Below the pieces are notes generated by a model, which made no database searches, was not told the origin of the DNA, and worked only from the letters and a program-made list of their open reading frames with translations. From positions 1 through 26,954 of IMG/VR virus record IMGVR_UViG_3300031659_000071: a stretch of 26,954 bases of DNA. One strand, 5' to 3'. Every line of letters begins with the position of its first letter. The stretch's first letter is position 1. Position numbers and translations under genes: made by a program. Source of the stretch: a virus. Positions 19,929-26,954 of the stretch are shown here, piece by piece.

Positions 19929-20885
19929 ATGGCTGTAGTAGCACCCTTATATGTAGATGACAGCAACGATTTAGTTCAGATGACTGCCGCTGAGATTTTG
20001 GAAGTTCAGCAACGTGCTATCTACGCATATTCTCAAAACATAACAGCGATATTAACACAAGTTGCCAGTAGTGGTGCAAACATAACTGGAATGGATGATA
20101 CACGTACAAAAGCTGGTGCGACTTCTCAAAATTCTTCTGCTTTTGTTGCAGAGGGAACTACTGCTGAACCAGCAACAGTTACAGTATCTTATGATAAAGT
20201 AAATCTTGCATATACAACGAGTGGTGTAAATCAAACCACAGATAGTGGAACAACTTTTCCAGTATATTACGATAATTCAAGTAATACTATTCAAGCGATG
20301 ACTTTGGGTGATATGCAAGACACTTTTCTACATCCTGCTATTGATTTGATGATATCTGCTACAGAGAGTGCAAATACTGCTGGAACATATACAATTACTG
20401 ATGCCGCATCAGCTGCAACTGGATATACAAAAATTTCTGCTGATGATACTCCTGTCTTTATAAACACTATTGCAAATGTTAGTGCATATGCTGCAAGTGG
20501 TATTCCAGAAACATTAGATCAACCCGCTACGGTTACAAGTTATTATTTACATGTAAAAAATGGTACAGCAAATACACCATCTCGTATACCAATAGTTATT
20601 AATAGTGATAATGATCTACAAGAAATGTCTACTTCTACTATTGATACCGTAATAGGTAATTGGTTAAGATATACTGCCGCAAACTCTAGTGATGGTTATA
20701 AAATAACATACGCAACTGCAACGTCTGGTGGAAACACAAGAGGAACAGCGATGGTTGATACTAAGTTAGATGGTGCTGGTAACTATCTAACTCGCCAGGT
20801 ATCAGATGATTATAGATCACAAGAAATGCCAAATGGTACTGCTCAAACCATTACCACGTATAACTTGCGTATAAATAAAGGATAG
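19929..20885 (+). CDS. Three-unit repeat virion structural protein
   Basis: This 318-residue protein is built from three related units. Each opens with a P-[L/I/V]-x-[V/I/Y]-[D/N]-x-x-[N/S]-D/T-L/I-x-x-M-[T/S] pattern, at residues 6-23, 111-129 and 221-238. Each closes with a strand ending in a Y-x-L-type segment (YYLHVKNG near 205-212; YNLRINKG at the C-terminus). The composition is Thr/Ala/Ser-rich with no Cys, no signal peptide and no membrane helix. It lies in the late module immediately after the fibre-like gene (start directly after the TAG at 19926-19928), with a possible internal promoter upstream. A tail or head decoration fibre component is the best guess; no named family was recognised. 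Confidence 0.7.
   Translation: MAVVAPLYVDDSNDLVQMTAAEILEVQQRAIYAYSQNITAILTQVASSGANITGMDDTRTKAGATSQNSSAFVAEGTTAEPATVTVSYDKVNLAYTTSGVNQTTDSGTTFPVYYDNSSNTIQAMTLGDMQDTFLHPAIDLMISATESANTAGTYTITDAASAATGYTKISADDTPVFINTIANVSAYAASGIPETLDQPATVTSYYLHVKNGTANTPSRIPIVINSDNDLQEMSTSTIDTVIGNWLRYTAANSSDGYKITYATATSGGNTRGTAMVDTKLDGAGNYLTRQVSDDYRSQEMPNGTAQTITTYNLRINKG
20870..20877 (+). promoter_or_regulatory. T4-type late promoter (TATAAATA)
   Basis: An exact TATAAATA overlaps the last codons of the three-unit repeat gene and lies 18 nt before the ATG at 20896. A GGGAG ribosome site follows it. The spacing matches the other late promoters, so it should drive the lysine-rich protein gene. Confidence 0.8.
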
Positions 20886-20895
20886 GGAGTAAGTA

Positions 20896-21558
20896 ATGGC
20901 AAGGAAACCAAGAACTACTAAAAAATCAACTGCAAGTAAGACAGTTGCGAAAAAAACAGAACCAGTTGAAAAGAAAGTATCAAGGGTTGAGTTTAAAGCA
21001 AAACCTGTAACAGGCGCAAAAGTAAAACTTCAACCTATTGCTGGTTCTCAAGTAAAGATTCCTGGCGTTCCATTTGCATTTTCTGGTAGAATAGTAGAAG
21101 CGTATTACACTAATCCAGAATTAGATACAATAGAAATTATGTGGAGTGATGGTGAAAAGAATCGTTCTTATTATTTAAAAGTAGATGAGAATGATGATCA
21201 GTTTAAAGCATTACTATCTGAATACTCATATGAAAATTTAGACGAATCAACACGTGCAAGAAATGAATCGCAAAGACAAGTATTTAGAGATTCATTTCAT
21301 AGATATGCTACAGAACATGGTTTATATAATCATGGTGGTGATGCACCGACAGGAGAAGAATCTCAAGGTTCTTTAGAAATGCTTTTTGATTTTCGATCAG
21401 ATAATGCAGTACATAAAGAAATATTATTTAAATTAAAGTTGAAAATGTTTGAACAAGAATCTGTTAAGAAAAGTGATGATAAAGAACTTAAATCTGCTAT
21501 CCGAAAGTCATCCACTATTCTTGGTGCAATTAAAATATATGCAGATTTTATAGAATAG
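20896..21558 (+). CDS. Lysine-rich-tailed protein of unknown function, last of the late module
   Basis: The protein has 220 residues. Residues 1-35 are a basic, Ala/Lys/Thr-rich, disordered-looking tail (RKPRTTKKSTASKTVAKKTE). A small beta-type region follows (about 55-100, with FSGRIVEAYYTNPELDTIEI and WSDGEKNRSYYLKV). The C-terminal half is helical and charged, with an aromatic RDSFHRYATEHGLY stretch near 138-151. The basic tail could bind nucleic acid or an acidic partner, but no domain was recognised. The gene has its own late promoter and a strong ribosome site (GGGAG), so it is probably made late. It is followed by a 30-nt gap and a change of promoter type. Confidence 0.75.
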   Translation: MARKPRTTKKSTASKTVAKKTEPVEKKVSRVEFKAKPVTGAKVKLQPIAGSQVKIPGVPFAFSGRIVEAYYTNPELDTIEIMWSDGEKNRSYYLKVDENDDQFKALLSEYSYENLDESTRARNESQRQVFRDSFHRYATEHGLYNHGGDAPTGEESQGSLEMLFDFRSDNAVHKEILFKLKLKMFEQESVKKSDDKELKSAIRKSSTILGAIKIYADFIE

Positions 21559-21561
21559 TAC

Positions 21562-21590
21562 TTGACAAAACTATATTATTATGGTAAGGT
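21562..21590 (+). promoter_or_regulatory. Sigma70-like promoter candidate before the accessory cassette
   Basis: TTGACA (21562-21567) is a perfect -35 element. At 17-nt spacing lies TAAGGT (21585-21590), preceded by TG (21582-21583) as in an extended -10. The predicted start would fall at or next to the ATG at 21597, giving a leaderless or near-leaderless mRNA. The AAGG inside it may instead be the ribosome site. It is one of few TTGACA-like sites seen and sits at the structural/accessory boundary. Confidence 0.45.
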
Positions 21591-21596
21591 GTGACT

Positions 21597-22961
21597 ATGA
21601 ATATAATAGGAATATCAGAAGGTTTTCATGATGCCGCATTGTGCGTTATTCGTGATCGAAAAATCCTCCATGCATCTCAAAGTGAAAGATATAGTGGTTT
21701 AAAAAATGATAAGTGGATACATCCATCTCAATGGCCTTCTTCAGAACAAAATCAACCAGACGTAGTTGCATACTACGAGAAACCTTTCAGAAAAAATTTA
21801 AGACGTTTATGGGCAGGACAATCTTGGGAAACTCCTAGAGTTAAATATGACTATTCTTATGGTCATCATGAATCTCATGCAGCGGCAGGATATTATACTG
21901 CTCCTTTTGACGATTGTAATGTTTTAGTTATAGACGCAATAGGTGAGTGGGATACTATCTCTATTTGGGAGGGTAGTGTCGATAAGGGGTATTTGGGTCG
22001 GAAGACTCATAGTCTTAAAAAAATAAGGTCATGGAAATATCCGTATTCTCTTGGCCTCCTCTATTCTGCAATCACCCAACGTATAGGACTGAAACCTAAC
22101 GAAGATGAATATATCACGATGGGGATGTCTGCTTATGGTGAACCCAAGTATGATTTAGAAGGTCAACTGTGGGAAAACAATCATAAAGGATGTGGAGACA
22201 TATTTCCAGAAGCAAGCAATGAAGACCTCGCAGCGTCCATACAAGACCTGTACGAGAGGGAACTACTTAAACTTGTAGAGATGTGTCCAAGTGAAAACCT
22301 AGTAATCATGGGTGGGTGTGCATTAAACTGTGCAGCAAACTCTAAGATAAAAGGTAAGAATATTTGGATTATGCCTGCACCTGGCGATGCTGGTTCTGCA
22401 ATAGGTGCGGCCGCCCTAGTAAAGAAAGAGAAATTAATATGGAGAAATCCTTATCTTGGAACTCCTATTCTTCAAGGACTTTCTGTAAAGAAAGTAGTAA
22501 AAGAACTTTTAGATAATCATGTTGTGGGGATTGCAAATGGTAAGGCAGAGTTTGGGCCACGTGCATTGGGTAATCGTTCCCTTCTTGGTGATCCACGATA
22601 TGATATAAAGGATACCGTGAATAAGATTAAACGTAGACAGTTGTTTAGACCCTTTGCACCAGCAATATTGGAAGAGTATAAAGACGAATATTTCGAAGGC
22701 CCAATGAATGAGTATATGCAGTTTATCGCAAAGGCAAAACATGATATGTCTTCTGTAACTCACGTTGATGGAACTGCAAGAGTACAAGTGGTCAAACCAG
22801 ACTGTAGTTCTGTACTCAGACAGATATTAGAAGAATGGTATGAACAAACAGGGTGTCCTATGTTGTTGAACACCTCTTTAAATATTAAGGGAAAACCTAT
22901 GGTTAATACTTGGAAAGATGCCCAAGAATGGAGTAAATTATATAATGTTGCTGTTTTCTAG
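21597..22961 (+). CDS. NodU/CmcH/TobZ-type O-carbamoyltransferase
   Basis: This 454-residue protein is a carbamoyltransferase of the family that makes carbamoyl-adenylate from carbamoyl phosphate and ATP and passes the carbamoyl group to a hydroxyl of a sugar or related acceptor. Family signatures in order are GISEGFHDAA (5-14), SERYSGLKND (29-38), a metal-binding HHESH (90-94) and Asp113 in VIDAIGEWD. Later come GGCALN (239-244), GDAGSAIGAA (263-272), GPRALGNRS (320-328) and the C-terminal NTSLNIKGKP (425-434). It is shorter than the 540-570 residues common in bacterial members. ATG 21597 is preferred to the in-frame GTG 21591 because AAGG lies 7 nt before it. It heads the accessory cassette; the acceptor is unknown (glycan or modified nucleotide). 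The family call is strong. Confidence 0.9.
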   Translation: MNIIGISEGFHDAALCVIRDRKILHASQSERYSGLKNDKWIHPSQWPSSEQNQPDVVAYYEKPFRKNLRRLWAGQSWETPRVKYDYSYGHHESHAAAGYYTAPFDDCNVLVIDAIGEWDTISIWEGSVDKGYLGRKTHSLKKIRSWKYPYSLGLLYSAITQRIGLKPNEDEYITMGMSAYGEPKYDLEGQLWENNHKGCGDIFPEASNEDLAASIQDLYERELLKLVEMCPSENLVIMGGCALNCAANSKIKGKNIWIMPAPGDAGSAIGAAALVKKEKLIWRNPYLGTPILQGLSVKKVVKELLDNHVVGIANGKAEFGPRALGNRSLLGDPRYDIKDTVNKIKRRQLFRPFAPAILEEYKDEYFEGPMNEYMQFIAKAKHDMSSVTHVDGTARVQVVKPDCSSVLRQILEEWYEQTGCPMLLNTSLNIKGKPMVNTWKDAQEWSKLYNVAVF

Positions 22962-23754
22962 ACGTAAGAAATTAGTTATCGGTGGTTGTTCATATACAGA
23001 CAACTATGCAAAAACACAAAATATGGAAGAATTTCCTTTATGGGGAGAACTCCTTGCAGAACAACTAGATATGGACTTGATCAATCTTGGTAGATGTGGA
23101 TTTGGTAATAAAGCAATTTATCACAGTCTTACTGAAGAAATTTTGAAAAGAAAAGATATAGGTCTAGTAGTTGCAATGTGGAGTGAGGTGCAACGAGTTA
23201 GTTTCTATACAGATAAAAAACCAGTTCCATTAAAAGATGGAAGTGTGTATGTACCAGAACCTTGGGATTGTTTTCATCCAGAGAGAATAGTTCTTGATGC
23301 AGAATGGCATGATAAGTTTTATACTCCTCCTAAAAAGAATCCTAAGAAGTCAGGACTTAGATTTGATATTAGTGTTGCTCTTAGAAATAAATTCTTAGAT
23401 GATATAAAGGGTGGAGTAAAAGAAAGTCTAGGTTATATGTATGCACTTCAAACTATATGTGAATCAAATAGTGTACCATATCTTCAAGTACAAGGATGTC
23501 AACCTTTGATGGGTAAAGGAGAACCCATACAGAGTGTTCAGTATAAAGAGTTTTGTAATCTTATTATAGAAAGTCCTTATATTGATAAAATGAAAAAGAC
23601 CTTTATTGGTTGGCCTATAGACCCACGTATTGGAGGTTACAGTATTGACAGTAGATTAGAAGATAAACATAGGTTTAGTCCAGAAGATACACATCCTAAT
23701 AAAAAAGGTCACAAACTTATTAGTAGGATTTTATATGACCTCTATAAATCTTGA
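22945..23754 (+). CDS. SGNH/GDSL hydrolase-like protein A
   Basis: This 269-residue protein has the landmarks of the SGNH fold: the nucleophile block VIGGCSYTD with Ser16 after the first strand, a Gly-containing loop GRCGFGN (49-55), MWSE (78-81) in the Asn/His-block place, and a C-terminal Asp-x-His block DTHPNKKGH (248-256). Such enzymes remove or transfer acyl groups on sugars and lipids. The third-block Asn is not obvious here, so catalysis is uncertain. ATG 22945 (GGAG 11 nt upstream) is preferred to an upstream in-frame ATG at 22918, which would have no spaced ribosome site. The start lies inside the carbamoyltransferase gene and the end overlaps the next gene by 20 nt. It has a paralogue at 24607. 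Acetyl-ester hydrolysis or transfer on a glycan is the likely chemistry. Confidence 0.75.
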   Translation: MLLFSRRKKLVIGGCSYTDNYAKTQNMEEFPLWGELLAEQLDMDLINLGRCGFGNKAIYHSLTEEILKRKDIGLVVAMWSEVQRVSFYTDKKPVPLKDGSVYVPEPWDCFHPERIVLDAEWHDKFYTPPKKNPKKSGLRFDISVALRNKFLDDIKGGVKESLGYMYALQTICESNSVPYLQVQGCQPLMGKGEPIQSVQYKEFCNLIIESPYIDKMKKTFIGWPIDPRIGGYSIDSRLEDKHRFSPEDTHPNKKGHKLISRILYDLYKS

Positions 23755-24367
23755 CATATCTTATAGGTGTGCATTAGAATGTCCTAAATGCAGAAGGCAA
23801 CAGTCTTTAAAACGACTAGGAAACTTTGGACATGATATATCTATAGAGAACTATAAAAAAATATTATCATACTTTGATAGTTTAAATTTTTGTGGTTCTA
23901 TTTCTGATCCAGTAATGCATCCTAAGTTTATAGAGTTTTTATCTTTATCTATAAACCACAAAGTAAAGGTATCTACAGCTGTATCGCAAAAATCGATGGA
24001 TTGGTATGAGAGTGCGTTTGAAAGTAATCCTGATGCTGAATGGCATTTTGGTTTAGATGGATTACCAGAAGAGAGTCATTTGTATAGGATTAATCAAGAT
24101 GGAACTAAACTATTTAAGGTAATGAAACTTGCAACATTGATGGGTATTAAAACCTATTGGCAGTACATCGTTTTTAAATATAATCAAGATCATATAGATC
24201 AAGCAAAAGATATGGCAAGAAAACACGGTATGATATTTAAGGAACAACACTCCTCACGATGGGATGAAAATGATCCTTACAAACCTGATGATGTCAACCA
24301 CTATTTAACAAAAGAGTATAATGATGAAATCAAACAAAAATTTCAGACCAAGTTGTATCCACGATAA
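23735..24367 (+). CDS. Minimal radical SAM protein
   Basis: The 210-residue protein opens almost directly with the [4Fe-4S] motif C-A-L-E-C-P-K-C (Cys12, Cys16, Cys19; CX3CX2C). A partial alpha/beta barrel follows: NFCGSISDPVMHP near 52-64 in place of the usual GGE strand, a KVSTAV strand near 77, and HFGLDG near 104-109. The length is that of a core barrel without the C-terminal auxiliary cluster domain that most peptide- and sugar-modifying members carry. That domain appears to be encoded by the next gene in another frame. AGGA lies 6 nt before the ATG, which is inside the preceding SGNH-like gene. The reaction is unknown. Radical SAM identity is strong. Confidence 0.85.
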   Translation: MTSINLDISYRCALECPKCRRQQSLKRLGNFGHDISIENYKKILSYFDSLNFCGSISDPVMHPKFIEFLSLSINHKVKVSTAVSQKSMDWYESAFESNPDAEWHFGLDGLPEESHLYRINQDGTKLFKVMKLATLMGIKTYWQYIVFKYNQDHIDQAKDMARKHGMIFKEQHSSRWDENDPYKPDDVNHYLTKEYNDEIKQKFQTKLYPR

Positions 24368-24626
24368 TAAGGAACCAGCATACTCTTCTACGGGGTACAT
24401 ACTTCCTTGTTGTTGGTGTGATACAGGGTTTCTATTACAGGATGAAGAATTTTCTGATATAATACAGGACAAGTTTAAGCTTGATAATGTAGACAAAGTA
24501 GAGGACATTATCGAATCGAAAGAATGGAAAGAGTTTAAAAAGTTTAACACAATTCCTATAGTTTGTCAACGATATTGTGGTGATGGTAAATCTAAGGAGG
24601 TTGTTTATGATAACTTCGGGATGTAG
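24321..24626 (+). CDS. Small Cys-rich SPASM/twitch-like protein, probable partner of the radical SAM protein
   Basis: This 101-residue protein has six cysteines: Cys12, Cys30, Cys31, Cys33, Cys82 and Cys86. The C-x17-CC spacing with G-Y-I-L-P-C-C matches the N-terminal part of the second radical SAM protein in this window (Cys12, Cys30, Cys31 there too, in G-R-I-Q-P-C-C). A CX3C pair near the end parallels its CX2C. In SPASM/twitch domains such cysteines bind auxiliary Fe-S clusters. The gene starts 47 nt inside the radical SAM gene in the +1 frame, with GAG 4 nt (or 7 nt for the second ATG) upstream. It could be a free-standing partner or the result of a frameshift that split one enzyme. The end overlaps the next gene by 20 nt. 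Confidence 0.7.
   Translation: MMKSNKNFRPSCIHDNKEPAYSSTGYILPCCWCDTGFLLQDEEFSDIIQDKFKLDNVDKVEDIIESKEWKEFKKFNTIPIVCQRYCGDGKSKEVVYDNFGM
24594..24600 (+). promoter_or_regulatory. Strong ribosome binding site deciding the SGNH-B start
   Basis: AAGGAGG lies 6 nt before the ATG at 24607, inside the Cys-rich gene. It fixes the start at 24607 over the in-frame upstream ATG codons at 24577 and 24583. It is the strongest Shine-Dalgarno seen in the accessory cassette. Confidence 0.8.
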
Positions 24627-25362
24627 TTTTACAGAAAGTGTAAGAGAAAATCAAGAAAAGTCTTGGGCAGATTATCTTGCAGAAAAATTAAATAAGAAAT
24701 TAGTTAACTATGGTAAAGGTGGAAGTGGTAACGAGTATATCTATAATAGTATTGTAGATAATTTAGATACTGATTTAGTAGTAGTTATGTGGTCTGGTTT
24801 TGATAGGTGGGATTTTCATTGGGGTTCTTTTGAATTGCCTTATTTAATAGAAGATGGTGGTACTATGCCGAGGAAAGATGAGTTAGTAAATACGTCTACA
24901 GGAAAGTTTGAAAATACATATGTAGCAAATGAAAACATAGCAGAATTATCTAAAGTAATGTTAAAAAATAATTTAGTTAATCGTGACTATCAGATTAAAA
25001 AAACAATACGTTGGATGGTATCTTTGCAACATATATGTGAACAAAAAAACATACCATTAATTCAATGTTTGGGATTTTTAGACTATGAATGGTGTAAAAA
25101 AATAAGATTCCTAGAGTTTCAAAAAAGTAAACCTAGTGGTTATCATTCCCTGTCAAAGGCGTTTATTGATTATAACCCATTCTATGAGTTGGAGAATAAA
25201 GCTTTAGGGTGGCCTTTTAGTAAACGAATAGGAGGATTTACTATAATGGATAAATTACGTAAAGATATGTTTGTATCCAATTTTGATCAACACCCAAATT
25301 ACAAGGGACATAAGTATATTAGTGAGGTTTTCTACGATGAATATAAAAAGATTAGTTCTTAA
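24607..25362 (+). CDS. SGNH/GDSL hydrolase-like protein B, paralogue of A
   Basis: The 251-residue protein has SGNH landmarks: SGCSFTE with Ser7, GKGGSGN (36-42), MWSG (61-64) and a terminal FDQHPNYKGH with Asp227 and His229. It shares a clear co-linear pattern with protein A (nt 22945), most obvious at the C-terminus, where both carry GWP..., RIGG and H-P-N-x-K-G-H with matching spacing. The two copies flank the radical SAM / Cys-rich pair. They may act on two positions of one product, or one may have lost activity. The third-block Asn is again unclear. The start is fixed by AAGGAGG 6 nt upstream. The 3' end overlaps the next small gene. Confidence 0.75.
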   Translation: MITSGCSFTESVRENQEKSWADYLAEKLNKKLVNYGKGGSGNEYIYNSIVDNLDTDLVVVMWSGFDRWDFHWGSFELPYLIEDGGTMPRKDELVNTSTGKFENTYVANENIAELSKVMLKNNLVNRDYQIKKTIRWMVSLQHICEQKNIPLIQCLGFLDYEWCKKIRFLEFQKSKPSGYHSLSKAFIDYNPFYELENKALGWPFSKRIGGFTIMDKLRKDMFVSNFDQHPNYKGHKYISEVFYDEYKKISS

Positions 25363-25519
25363 ATTTAGATTGTTTATTTCTTCTGCTTTTCCCCAAAAAG
25401 AAAAGAAGGAAAAAGGATTCATATACGAATTTGACGATGAACGATTTAAAAAACTTCCTCCAGAAGAACAGGGTGTGCAAGTCCAAAAAAATTGGAACAA
25501 GTACATGGAAGACAAATGA
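25337..25519 (+). CDS. Small basic protein of unknown function (60 residues)
   Basis: The short protein begins inside the end of the SGNH-B gene (ATG 25337; GAGG 9 nt upstream) and ends with ATGA overlapping the next gene. An in-frame upstream ATG at 25271 lacks a ribosome site and lies deeper in the other gene. Residues 1-15 are basic and hydrophobic (MNIKRLVLKFRLFIS), possibly an amphipathic helix that could touch a membrane. The rest is charged (KEKKEKG, then FKKLPPEEQG). Coupled overlap on both sides argues that it is translated. No family recognised. In biosynthetic clusters with radical SAM enzymes a small peptide could be a substrate, but this one lacks a clear leader/core layout. Confidence 0.6.
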   Translation: MNIKRLVLKFRLFISSAFPQKEKKEKGFIYEFDDERFKKLPPEEQGVQVQKNWNKYMEDK

Positions 25520-26754
25520 CTAAAAAGTTAGAAGATTATGAATGGTTATGTCCACAACCCTTTATGAATCTATACAAGAATGTTTTTGGACGAATCCAAC
25601 CTTGTTGTGTTACTAAACAAGAATCAAATTGGGGTCGTGGTGAGATAGATGACTACTTTAAAAGTGATAAATTAAAACAATTACGTCACGAAATGTTAAC
25701 AACGCCTGGTAAAGAAGTTGCAAGTACTTGTGATGTTTGTTTAGTACAAGAACAACATGGATCAGAAAGTCATCGAAGAACCTATTTGGATTATCTGAAA
25801 TATGGTAAACCAGAACTAAAACCACAAATTGAAGAGTATATAGAAACTGATATGGAGAAACCATTCATCAAAACGATGGAATGGTTAGCACCAAGTAACT
25901 ACTGTAATCTAAGATGTCATATGTGTGGTTCTGGTAACTCTTCTGGTATCGCTAGAGAAAATCAAGAAATAGGTCATCCTAATTTTTCTATTCTTGGTAA
26001 TAAATCTTTATACAAAGATGATGATGTTGCTACTAAAGATATAAAAGAATTTGAAGATAAAGTTTTGGATAATTTAGTTGAGCTCAAGCTCACTGGTGGT
26101 GAGACATTGGCAATCAAATATAACTATGACTTACTAGAAACGACAGTCAATAATTTTAACAGTGAAGAAATGGATTTGAGAATTACTACGAATGGAACTC
26201 TAACACCAAAGTTCAACGGTAAAGACATTTTTGATTACATACCCAGATTTAAATCTACACTGATAAACGTATCAATTGAAGGTTGGGCTGATAGAAACTG
26301 TTATATAAGGTATCCCTCAAAATGGGAGGATATTATGAAGAATGTTCGTAAATTTGCAGAGATGGAAAAAACTAAAATATTATTTGTATCCACAGTAAAT
26401 AGTTTAAGTGTAGGTTATTTGTGGGAAGTAGCAGCAGGATGTGAACAGTTTATCGAAGAATATCCTAACAAGTTTCATCAATTTGCTTCTGGTAGTTTAG
26501 TGTGGGGAGATTGGGAAGAGTATACCGTTCCTGCTATTCCATTAGAATTAAGAGATATGTATATAGAAAATTATTATGAAAATCCTAATCCTAGATATGA
26601 TAGAGACTTTAGTAAACTTGTTAATTTTTTAGAAGATATGCCTTTTGATGAAAAGGTTCATCTTGCTATGATGAAGGACGTTAAAGATAGAGATAAGTAT
26701 AGAGGTACATGTTTATTAGATTTATGGCCGGAATGGAAACCTTATTATGACTAA
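25516..26754 (+). CDS. Radical SAM protein with N-terminal twitch/SPASM-like Cys domain
   Basis: This 412-residue protein has an N-terminal cysteine domain (Cys12, Cys30-Cys31, Cys72, Cys75), followed by the radical SAM core starting at C-N-L-R-C-H-M-C (Cys130, Cys134, Cys137). LTGGE, the SAM-amine-binding motif, is at 192-196 and TTNGT at 224-228. The auxiliary-cluster domain lies before the barrel, not after it, an order I know from 'twitch domain-containing' radical SAM proteins of marine phages and bacteria. The C-terminal ~130 residues are helical and rich in Tyr/Trp. The ATG overlaps the preceding stop (ATGA at 25516-25519). Substrate and product are unknown; modification of a peptide or of a sugar/nucleotide-linked compound is possible. 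Confidence 0.85.
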   Translation: MTKKLEDYEWLCPQPFMNLYKNVFGRIQPCCVTKQESNWGRGEIDDYFKSDKLKQLRHEMLTTPGKEVASTCDVCLVQEQHGSESHRRTYLDYLKYGKPELKPQIEEYIETDMEKPFIKTMEWLAPSNYCNLRCHMCGSGNSSGIARENQEIGHPNFSILGNKSLYKDDDVATKDIKEFEDKVLDNLVELKLTGGETLAIKYNYDLLETTVNNFNSEEMDLRITTNGTLTPKFNGKDIFDYIPRFKSTLINVSIEGWADRNCYIRYPSKWEDIMKNVRKFAEMEKTKILFVSTVNSLSVGYLWEVAAGCEQFIEEYPNKFHQFASGSLVWGDWEEYTVPAIPLELRDMYIENYYENPNPRYDRDFSKLVNFLEDMPFDEKVHLAMMKDVKDRDKYRGTCLLDLWPEWKPYYD

Positions 26755-26954
26755 TACAATATTATGCGTGAAGTGGGGTGACAAGTATGATCATACCTAT
26801 GTTGAGAAACTAAAGGAACAGTGTGAACAGAACTGTTCCGTACCATTCAATTTTTACTGTCTCACAGACAACCCAACACAACCATACGATATACAACTAC
26901 CTACCTATTGGGATCAGTATTATTTACCAGAAAAGAATTTCTTTTGGGCTTATA
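26747..26954 (+). CDS. Probable glycosyltransferase, 5' part (runs off the window)
   Basis: The frame opens at ATG 26747, inside the end of the radical SAM gene (stop 26752-26754), and runs to the window edge without a stop: 69 complete residues. The start reads TILCVKWGDKYDHTYVEKL and continues to FNFYCLTDNP at about residues 39-48. This is the usual beginning of a GT-A type glycosyltransferase of the kind seen in marine phage and bacterial surface-sugar clusters (a short strand, WG.KY, then F.CLTD). The DXD motif and the rest lie beyond the window, so only the N-terminal pattern supports the call. It fits the carbamoyltransferase and SGNH genes as a glycan-related cassette. Confidence 0.6.
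   Translation, partial: MTNTILCVKWGDKYDHTYVEKLKEQCEQNCSVPFNFYCLTDNPTQPYDIQLPTYWDQYYLPEKNFFWAY

Follow-up and report, generated by a model that had tools for sequence, protein, structure and literature searches.

A candidate glycan-tailoring island with a probable two-polypeptide radical SAM enzyme in a T4-like, pelagimyophage-type phage

What might a tailed phage make with a carbamoyltransferase, SGNH-fold proteins, radical SAM proteins and a glycosyltransferase placed beside its tail genes? The question is raised by the IMG/VR virus record IMGVR_UViG_3300031659_000071, a fragment of 26,954 nucleotides that was analysed over its whole length and is called the window here. Its first 21.5 kb hold T4-like phage baseplate and tail genes, and from position 21,597 to the window end follows a cassette of eight open reading frames (ORFs) on the plus strand, overlapping or abutting, all of which are present as a first-pass annotation had listed them. 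Their order is carbamoyltransferase (CT), SGNH1, the core of radical SAM enzyme 1 (RS1), a Cys-rich SPASM protein, SGNH2, a protein of 60 amino acids (aa), radical SAM enzyme 2 (RS2) and the start of a glycosyltransferase (GT). At close to even odds (probability about 0.48), we read the cassette as the first half of a moron-like island for glycan tailoring, carried by a marine, pelagimyophage-type T4-like phage, with the modified sugar most likely placed on the host envelope. Building or decorating a sugar, as the annotation had proposed, is the best fit, given the GTs downstream, an epimerase in one relative and a published island of the same type.

The island core and its place in the phage genome

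The CT has 231 relatives in IMG/VR, of which 80 loci were kept (numbered with the prefix L), and removal of near-copies left 52 CT genes. Because an SGNH gene stands right after CT in 39 of these 52 non-redundant loci, the combination is not a matter of chance; SGNH also adjoins CT in 14 of the 15 loci that share the tail gene upstream of the window's cassette. Island content was counted in 11 non-redundant islands flanked by that tail gene and with at least eight downstream genes. The core order in these islands is CT, SGNH (at least one copy), a GT (GT6), a methyltransferase-like gene (MT7), a gene of the Asp/Asn-hydroxylase family (PF05118), a 450-aa protein without assigned function (c12) and a second GT-like gene (GT10). 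SGNH and the methyltransferase-like gene are found in all 11 islands, GT6, the Asp-hydroxylase and c12 in 10 each, and GT10 in 9. RS2 is present in 8/11 and RS1 in 5/11, at varying places, and the radical SAM genes are therefore accessory to a stable CT-SGNH-GT core. The ordered set that the annotation had proposed to search for recurs in its CT-SGNH part, together with the core, while its radical SAM genes make no fixed pair.

The annotation had also asked whether sugar-nucleotide genes follow past the end of the contig, and relatives carry sugar-type genes there: a full GT and the second GT-like protein, to which one relative adds a sugar epimerase. Other genes beyond the window edge belong to SAM-methyltransferase/spermidine-synthase-like proteins, the Asp/Asn hydroxylase family and 2-oxoglutarate oxygenases. 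Family and structure searches gave only a weak spermidine-synthase-fold match for MT7 and, apart from a single match below threshold (0.0013), no relative of c12 in Pfam, PHROG, NCBIfam or the PDB. The c12 family, of about 450 aa, comprises L053:12347-13708 and 13 relatives and is conserved in the island core. A 108-kb contig of the Gammaproteobacteria metagenome-assembled genome MED685 (L277) carries SGNH genes, a short CT, an epimerase, a GT and MT7-like genes in phage style; although binned as bacterial, it is probably phage.

Judged from gene order, the island lies in the interval from VrlC to gp14 that is known as the host recognition cluster (HRC) of pelagimyophages, its right border being seen in relatives. 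The HRC was described as a hypervariable island that is bounded by VrlC and the neck gene gp14 and holds glycosyltransferases as well as radical SAM cassettes, and its authors propose that it changes the host surface against co-infection (PMC7029224, Zaragoza-Solas et al. 2020). The window's island is of the same type, at the same place and with the same two kinds of genes, whereas carbamoyltransferase goes unmentioned in that paper, and we did not find the conserved CT-SGNH-GT-MT-AspH core, the sigma70-like promoter or the split radical SAM pair described there. The VrlC-like gene forms the left border of the cluster, and the tail-region gene directly upstream of CT is a conserved marker of the insertion place. 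In relatives, the island stands between VrlC/tail and gp13/gp14/gp15, and the neck genes gp13/gp14 come after it in five loci (L017, L023, L027, L028 and L032). The cassette, which had been placed directly after the structural module, is thus located inside the late structural block, with neck genes next in relatives. Judged by the baseplate protein gp6, the nearest isolates are Mosig, which infects SAR11 (50%), the Methylophilales phages of the Melnitz type (49%) and HTVC008M (47%).

The carbamoyltransferase and its partner proteins

CT matched both Pfam domains of its family far above the cut-offs, with 132.7 bits for Carbam_trans_N (3e-38, cut-off 24) and 165.4 bits for Carbam_trans_C (1e-48, cut-off 27). 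Residues H11, H90, H94, D113 and D264, which we take to be metal or catalytic residues from what is known of TobZ, are invariant in an alignment of 19 relatives. Its PDB relatives are novobiocin CT, GdmN and TobZ; TobZ and novobiocin CT are antibiotic-tailoring enzymes that act on sugar hydroxyls. With these three and NodU, the window CT shares the two domains, the putative metal site and the C-terminal core, but its N-terminal part is short, so that it has 454 aa compared with about 570-700. The CTs found in SAR11 are of the long type (567-579 aa). In bacteria, the nearest relatives of this short phage CT, at 41-43%, include those of the actinobacteria Streptomyces samsunensis (L278) and Plantactinospora endophytica (L279).

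Both SGNH proteins are weak by Pfam. The AlphaFold model of SGNH1 (predicted local distance difference test, pLDDT, 90.7) matched GDSL esterases, acetyl xylan esterases and PatB in the PDB, and Ser-Asp-His residues S25, D257 and H259 are conserved in 53 members of an SGNH alignment that includes SGNH2, a homologue of SGNH1 at 29%. The model and the triad point to an SGNH/GDSL fold, and SGNH1 is a predicted hydrolase or acyltransferase. Loci L026 and L081 carry up to four tandem SGNH paralogues after CT, which suggests substrate diversification.

RS2 scored 244.2 bits against NF033640 (N_Twi_rSAM, cut-off 170) and is a full member of that family. Its cysteines C12, C30, C31, C72 and C75 of the twitch part and C130, C134 and C137 of the radical SAM part are invariant in 10 relatives. 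We rejected a defence system as a candidate, considering that PADLOC returned only a weak pVip match for RS2 (7e-5), which is explained by the common radical SAM core. Full-length copies of GT6 in L004, L053 and L014 are 88-90% identical over the 69 aa within the window. The DxD motif of GT6 (D98, D100) is conserved in 18 members, and the Glyco_transf_8 profile gave weak matches in 5 of the 18 (best E 0.0028). The 60-aa protein had tblastn matches in L004, L007, L014, L015, L018, L025, L031, L053 and L072.

RS1 and the stand-alone SPASM protein

The Cys-rich protein that the annotation had listed does exist as an ORF, but it does not seem to have a separate function, since it corresponds to the SPASM second half of RS1. 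We consider it probable that RS1 and the SPASM protein together make up a single radical SAM enzyme as its two subunits, in which the separate protein would supply the auxiliary [4Fe-4S] cluster, and that the two-polypeptide form is the common state of a phage-borne family with repeated fusion, splitting and order swap. Scans were made with the core and with the SPASM protein separately, and cores were collapsed at 80% identity. Among the non-redundant architectures, separate ORFs were found as core then SPASM in 30 and as SPASM then core in 7, and fused forms as core-SPASM in 14 and as SPASM-core in 1. The SPASM domain is thus separate from the RS1 core in 37 non-redundant loci, and fused forms appear only in other branches. 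The tree of cores calls for at least five architecture changes; for the swapped order, two or more changes are required by branches with strong support.

If RS1 and the SPASM protein were instead a single gene, either interrupted by an error in sequencing or joined through a programmed frameshift, the 46-nucleotide (nt) overlap and the +1 frame in the window would be explained. However, the 37 split loci use frames +1 and +2, their gaps range from a 46-nt overlap to a spacing of nearly 90 nt, the order is swapped in 7, and separate start codons are available in all. The three cysteines of the CX3CX2C motif in the core are invariant in 37/37 split homologues, and in the SPASM protein the four cysteines of PCC and CxxxC are present in 37/37 and the first Cys in 35/37. 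Because the cysteines are conserved while frame, gap and order vary, the two appear to be proteins of one enzyme; frameshift or assembly error was ruled out as a candidate by these loci, and the chance left to a single gene is very slight.

A model of the fused homologue L203 (pLDDT 90.4, predicted template modelling score 0.90) had BlsE, SkfB, SuiB, DesII, PqqE and MoaA as PDB neighbours. RS1 and its partner share the CX3CX2C core and a twitch-type Cys pattern with the SPASM/twitch enzymes SkfB, SuiB, PqqE, DesII and BlsE, from which they differ in that the auxiliary-cluster domain is a separate protein, in either gene order. To our knowledge, none of these five enzymes has that domain as a separate protein, and nothing relevant on a stand-alone or split SPASM protein was found in the open-access literature. 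Host-derived SAR11 genes were also considered and rejected: no relatives of RS1 or the SPASM protein were found in 247 SAR11-order genomes, nor of RS1 in 398 genomes of the phylum, while the phage controls matched in 8/8.

The only named isolate found with a split pair is Mosig, a Pelagibacter phage that belongs to the same phage group. Its genes EXVC030M 00083-00093 (MT647606) include a CT, a split core (00084) and a stand-alone SPASM protein (00085), the latter two at 49% and 30% to those of the window and annotated as MoaA-like and hypothetical, respectively. The Mosig CT is longer and distant (33%), and the gene order is different, with nitroreductases and a sugar aminotransferase. In L150, L154, L194, L213 and L218, SPASM-first split pairs have ORFs of about 2.2 kb next to them, and split-pair neighbours include tail-sheath families; this is perhaps another setting of the family, one related to the virion. 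Loci L043, L047, L048 and L050 (about 7850-8944 in L048) have a fused radical SAM protein with SPASM before the core, in a permuted order that resembles RS2.

Table 1. Positions of the cassette genes, promoter-like sites and neighbouring genes in the window
Feature	Position	Strand	Remarks
VrlC-like baseplate protein, 2143 aa	11106..17537	+	38-39% to Mosig VrlC, 44% to Melnitz homologue
T4-type late promoter TATAAATA	20870..20877	+	Ahead of the tail gene, upstream of the island
Tail-region gene directly upstream of the island	20896..21558	+	Adjoins CT in 15/52 non-redundant CT loci
Sigma70-type promoter-like site, TTGACA-17-TAAGGT	21562..21590	+	Directly ahead of CT; recurs in relatives
CT, O-carbamoyltransferase of NodU/TobZ type, short form	21597..22961	+	First island gene; Pfam Carbam_trans_N/C, phrog_1601
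SGNH1, SGNH/GDSL-fold esterase or acyltransferase (predicted)	22945..23754 (conserved Met 22945; ORF may start at 22918)	+	Fold and triad
RS1, radical SAM core subunit (probable), 210 aa, CX3CX2C	23735..24367	+	PHROG radical SAM 9e-14
Stand-alone SPASM/twitch protein	24321..24626	+	Frame +1, overlaps RS1; Pfam SPASM 5e-4
SGNH2, SGNH/GDSL-fold protein	24607..25362 (ORF may start at 24577)	+	Pfam Lipase_GDSL_2 9.5e-4, below cut-off
60-aa protein, amphipathic/hydrophobic N-terminus	25337..25519 (start inferred by comparison with L007)	+	Conserved beside SGNH/RS2 in relatives
RS2, radical SAM enzyme with N-terminal twitch domain	25516..26754	+	NCBIfam NF033640
GT6, GT-A/GT8-like glycosyltransferase start	26747..26954 (cut by window end)	+	First 69 aa; relatives 88-90% identical over this part

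Promoters and the likely target of the product

The sigma70-like site before CT recurs in 11 of 23 tail-flanked relatives from 7 lineages, always with a 17-nt spacer, compared with 3 among roughly 290 starts of other genes in these loci. The T4-type late promoter TATAAATA was found in 24 related loci 46 times on the plus (coding) strand and 3 times on the minus strand, and 28 of 45 sites sit 18-26 nt before a start codon. It stands at the upstream tail gene in 10 of the 24 loci (the window included) and at gp13 in 5/5, while none was found at CT, SGNH, GT or other core island genes in the 24 loci and one in nine cases at RS1. In the window, late promoters at 112, 8838 and 20870 shortly precede gene starts at 145, 8867 and 20896. 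With a sigma70-like site at CT and TATAAATA sites upstream, the island seems to combine a host-type promoter of its own with late read-through. Late-only expression, which was first favoured from the TATAAATA sites, was weakened by the site at CT. At the one far island end inspected (L028), there was no clear terminator, only one weak candidate inside the last gene.

In the mechanism we propose, the island would be transcribed from its own sigma70-type promoter, plus read-through from the late tail operon, and the two glycosyltransferases of the full island would move the sugar. The radical SAM enzymes would alter a sugar carbon via hydrogen abstraction, with RS1 presumably acting as a complex of the core and the separate [4Fe-4S] subunit. 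CT may cap a hydroxyl using carbamoyl phosphate and ATP, the SGNH proteins may add or remove acyl groups, and the modified sugar would end on the host outer envelope, where receptors would be changed and other phages kept out. The sequences themselves show the gene content, the synteny, the promoter-like sites, the conservation of catalytic residues and the presence of RS1 and SPASM as distinct conserved genes; the sugar substrate, the product, the RS1-SPASM complex, the order of the steps and the attachment to the envelope are what we infer.

Several contexts are consistent with a sugar. CT lies within 6 kb of a split RS1 pair in 6 of 34 loci that had been retrieved independently of CT; split-pair neighbours include DegT sugar aminotransferases, nitroreductases, TauD, oxygenases and GT8; and a single region of Mosig holds CT, the split pair and an aminotransferase of the UDP-amino-arabinose type. 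The radical SAM family has the sugar enzymes BlsE and DesII among its fold neighbours in the PDB. On the other hand, some observations weigh against a sugar on the host envelope: the fold list that contains BlsE and DesII also contains the peptide maturases SkfB and SuiB, the window contains no sugar-nucleotide synthesis gene, 12 of the 23 relatives lack the sigma70-like site, the GT assignment draws on the DxD motif and weak GT8 scores, and the upstream late promoters would also allow a role in the virion.

The annotation had left the host envelope and a virion glycan side by side, and the promoter at CT leans to the former. Decoration of the tail fibres, the sheath or a head protein with a carbamoylated or acylated sugar, late in infection, would suit an island within the late structural operon, where late promoters stand at gp13 and at the tail gene upstream but almost nowhere inside the island, as well as the SPASM-first pairs and tail-sheath neighbours described above. 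However, the sigma70-like site in 11 of 23 relatives points to expression by unmodified host polymerase, and because of this host-type promoter the envelope seems the likelier target, virion decoration being rather unlikely. It is less likely still that the island makes a ribosomal peptide or small diffusible compound, the radical SAM/SPASM and Asp-hydroxylase enzymes having a peptide, perhaps the 60-aa protein, as their substrate. Peptide maturation is a frequent role of SPASM radical SAM enzymes, SkfB and SuiB are among the top fold matches, the small ORF is conserved, and related short CTs occur in actinobacteria; yet the 60-aa protein is also found without a directly adjoining radical SAM gene (L007, L015, L025, L031 and L072), it lacks a Cys-rich or repeated core, and the neighbours include GT and sugar aminotransferase genes.

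A modified nucleotide, which the annotation had named as another possible product, is disfavoured by both CT residues and gene context. Phage O-carbamoyltransferases of the same Pfam family can act on 5-hydroxymethylcytosine (5hmC) (eLife 2021;10:e70021), and CT might likewise modify hydroxymethylcytosine in phage DNA (5cmdC). However, the diagnostic L, C and T of that enzyme (TobZ 408, 421 and 423) are I312, G325 and R327 in the window CT, in a mapping inferred from the TobZ chain offset, and the G and R are invariant in 19 relatives. The thymidylate-synthase neighbourhood of the 5hmC enzyme also seems to be lacking: no gene of that type is among the island genes, and members of the family were not found in a 115-kb relative and 11 other records and matched in 3/15, most of these records being fragments. 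CTs flanked by GTs form the unmodified class in the 5hmC study, which also counts against this activity (eLife 2021;10:e70021). Since the diagnostic residues differ and a thymidylate-synthase-type gene was not found in most related records, DNA carbamoylation is very improbable.

Taken together, pelagimyophage host-recognition islands have been described but are functionally opaque, and here a stable core with what appears to be its own promoter is separated from accessory radical SAM genes. Mosig on SAR11 offers a cultured test case for the island. The split radical SAM/SPASM family comes in natural variants with the two parts fused, split or swapped in order, and it makes the role of the auxiliary cluster in SPASM/twitch enzymes testable by adding or omitting the subunit that would bear the cluster.

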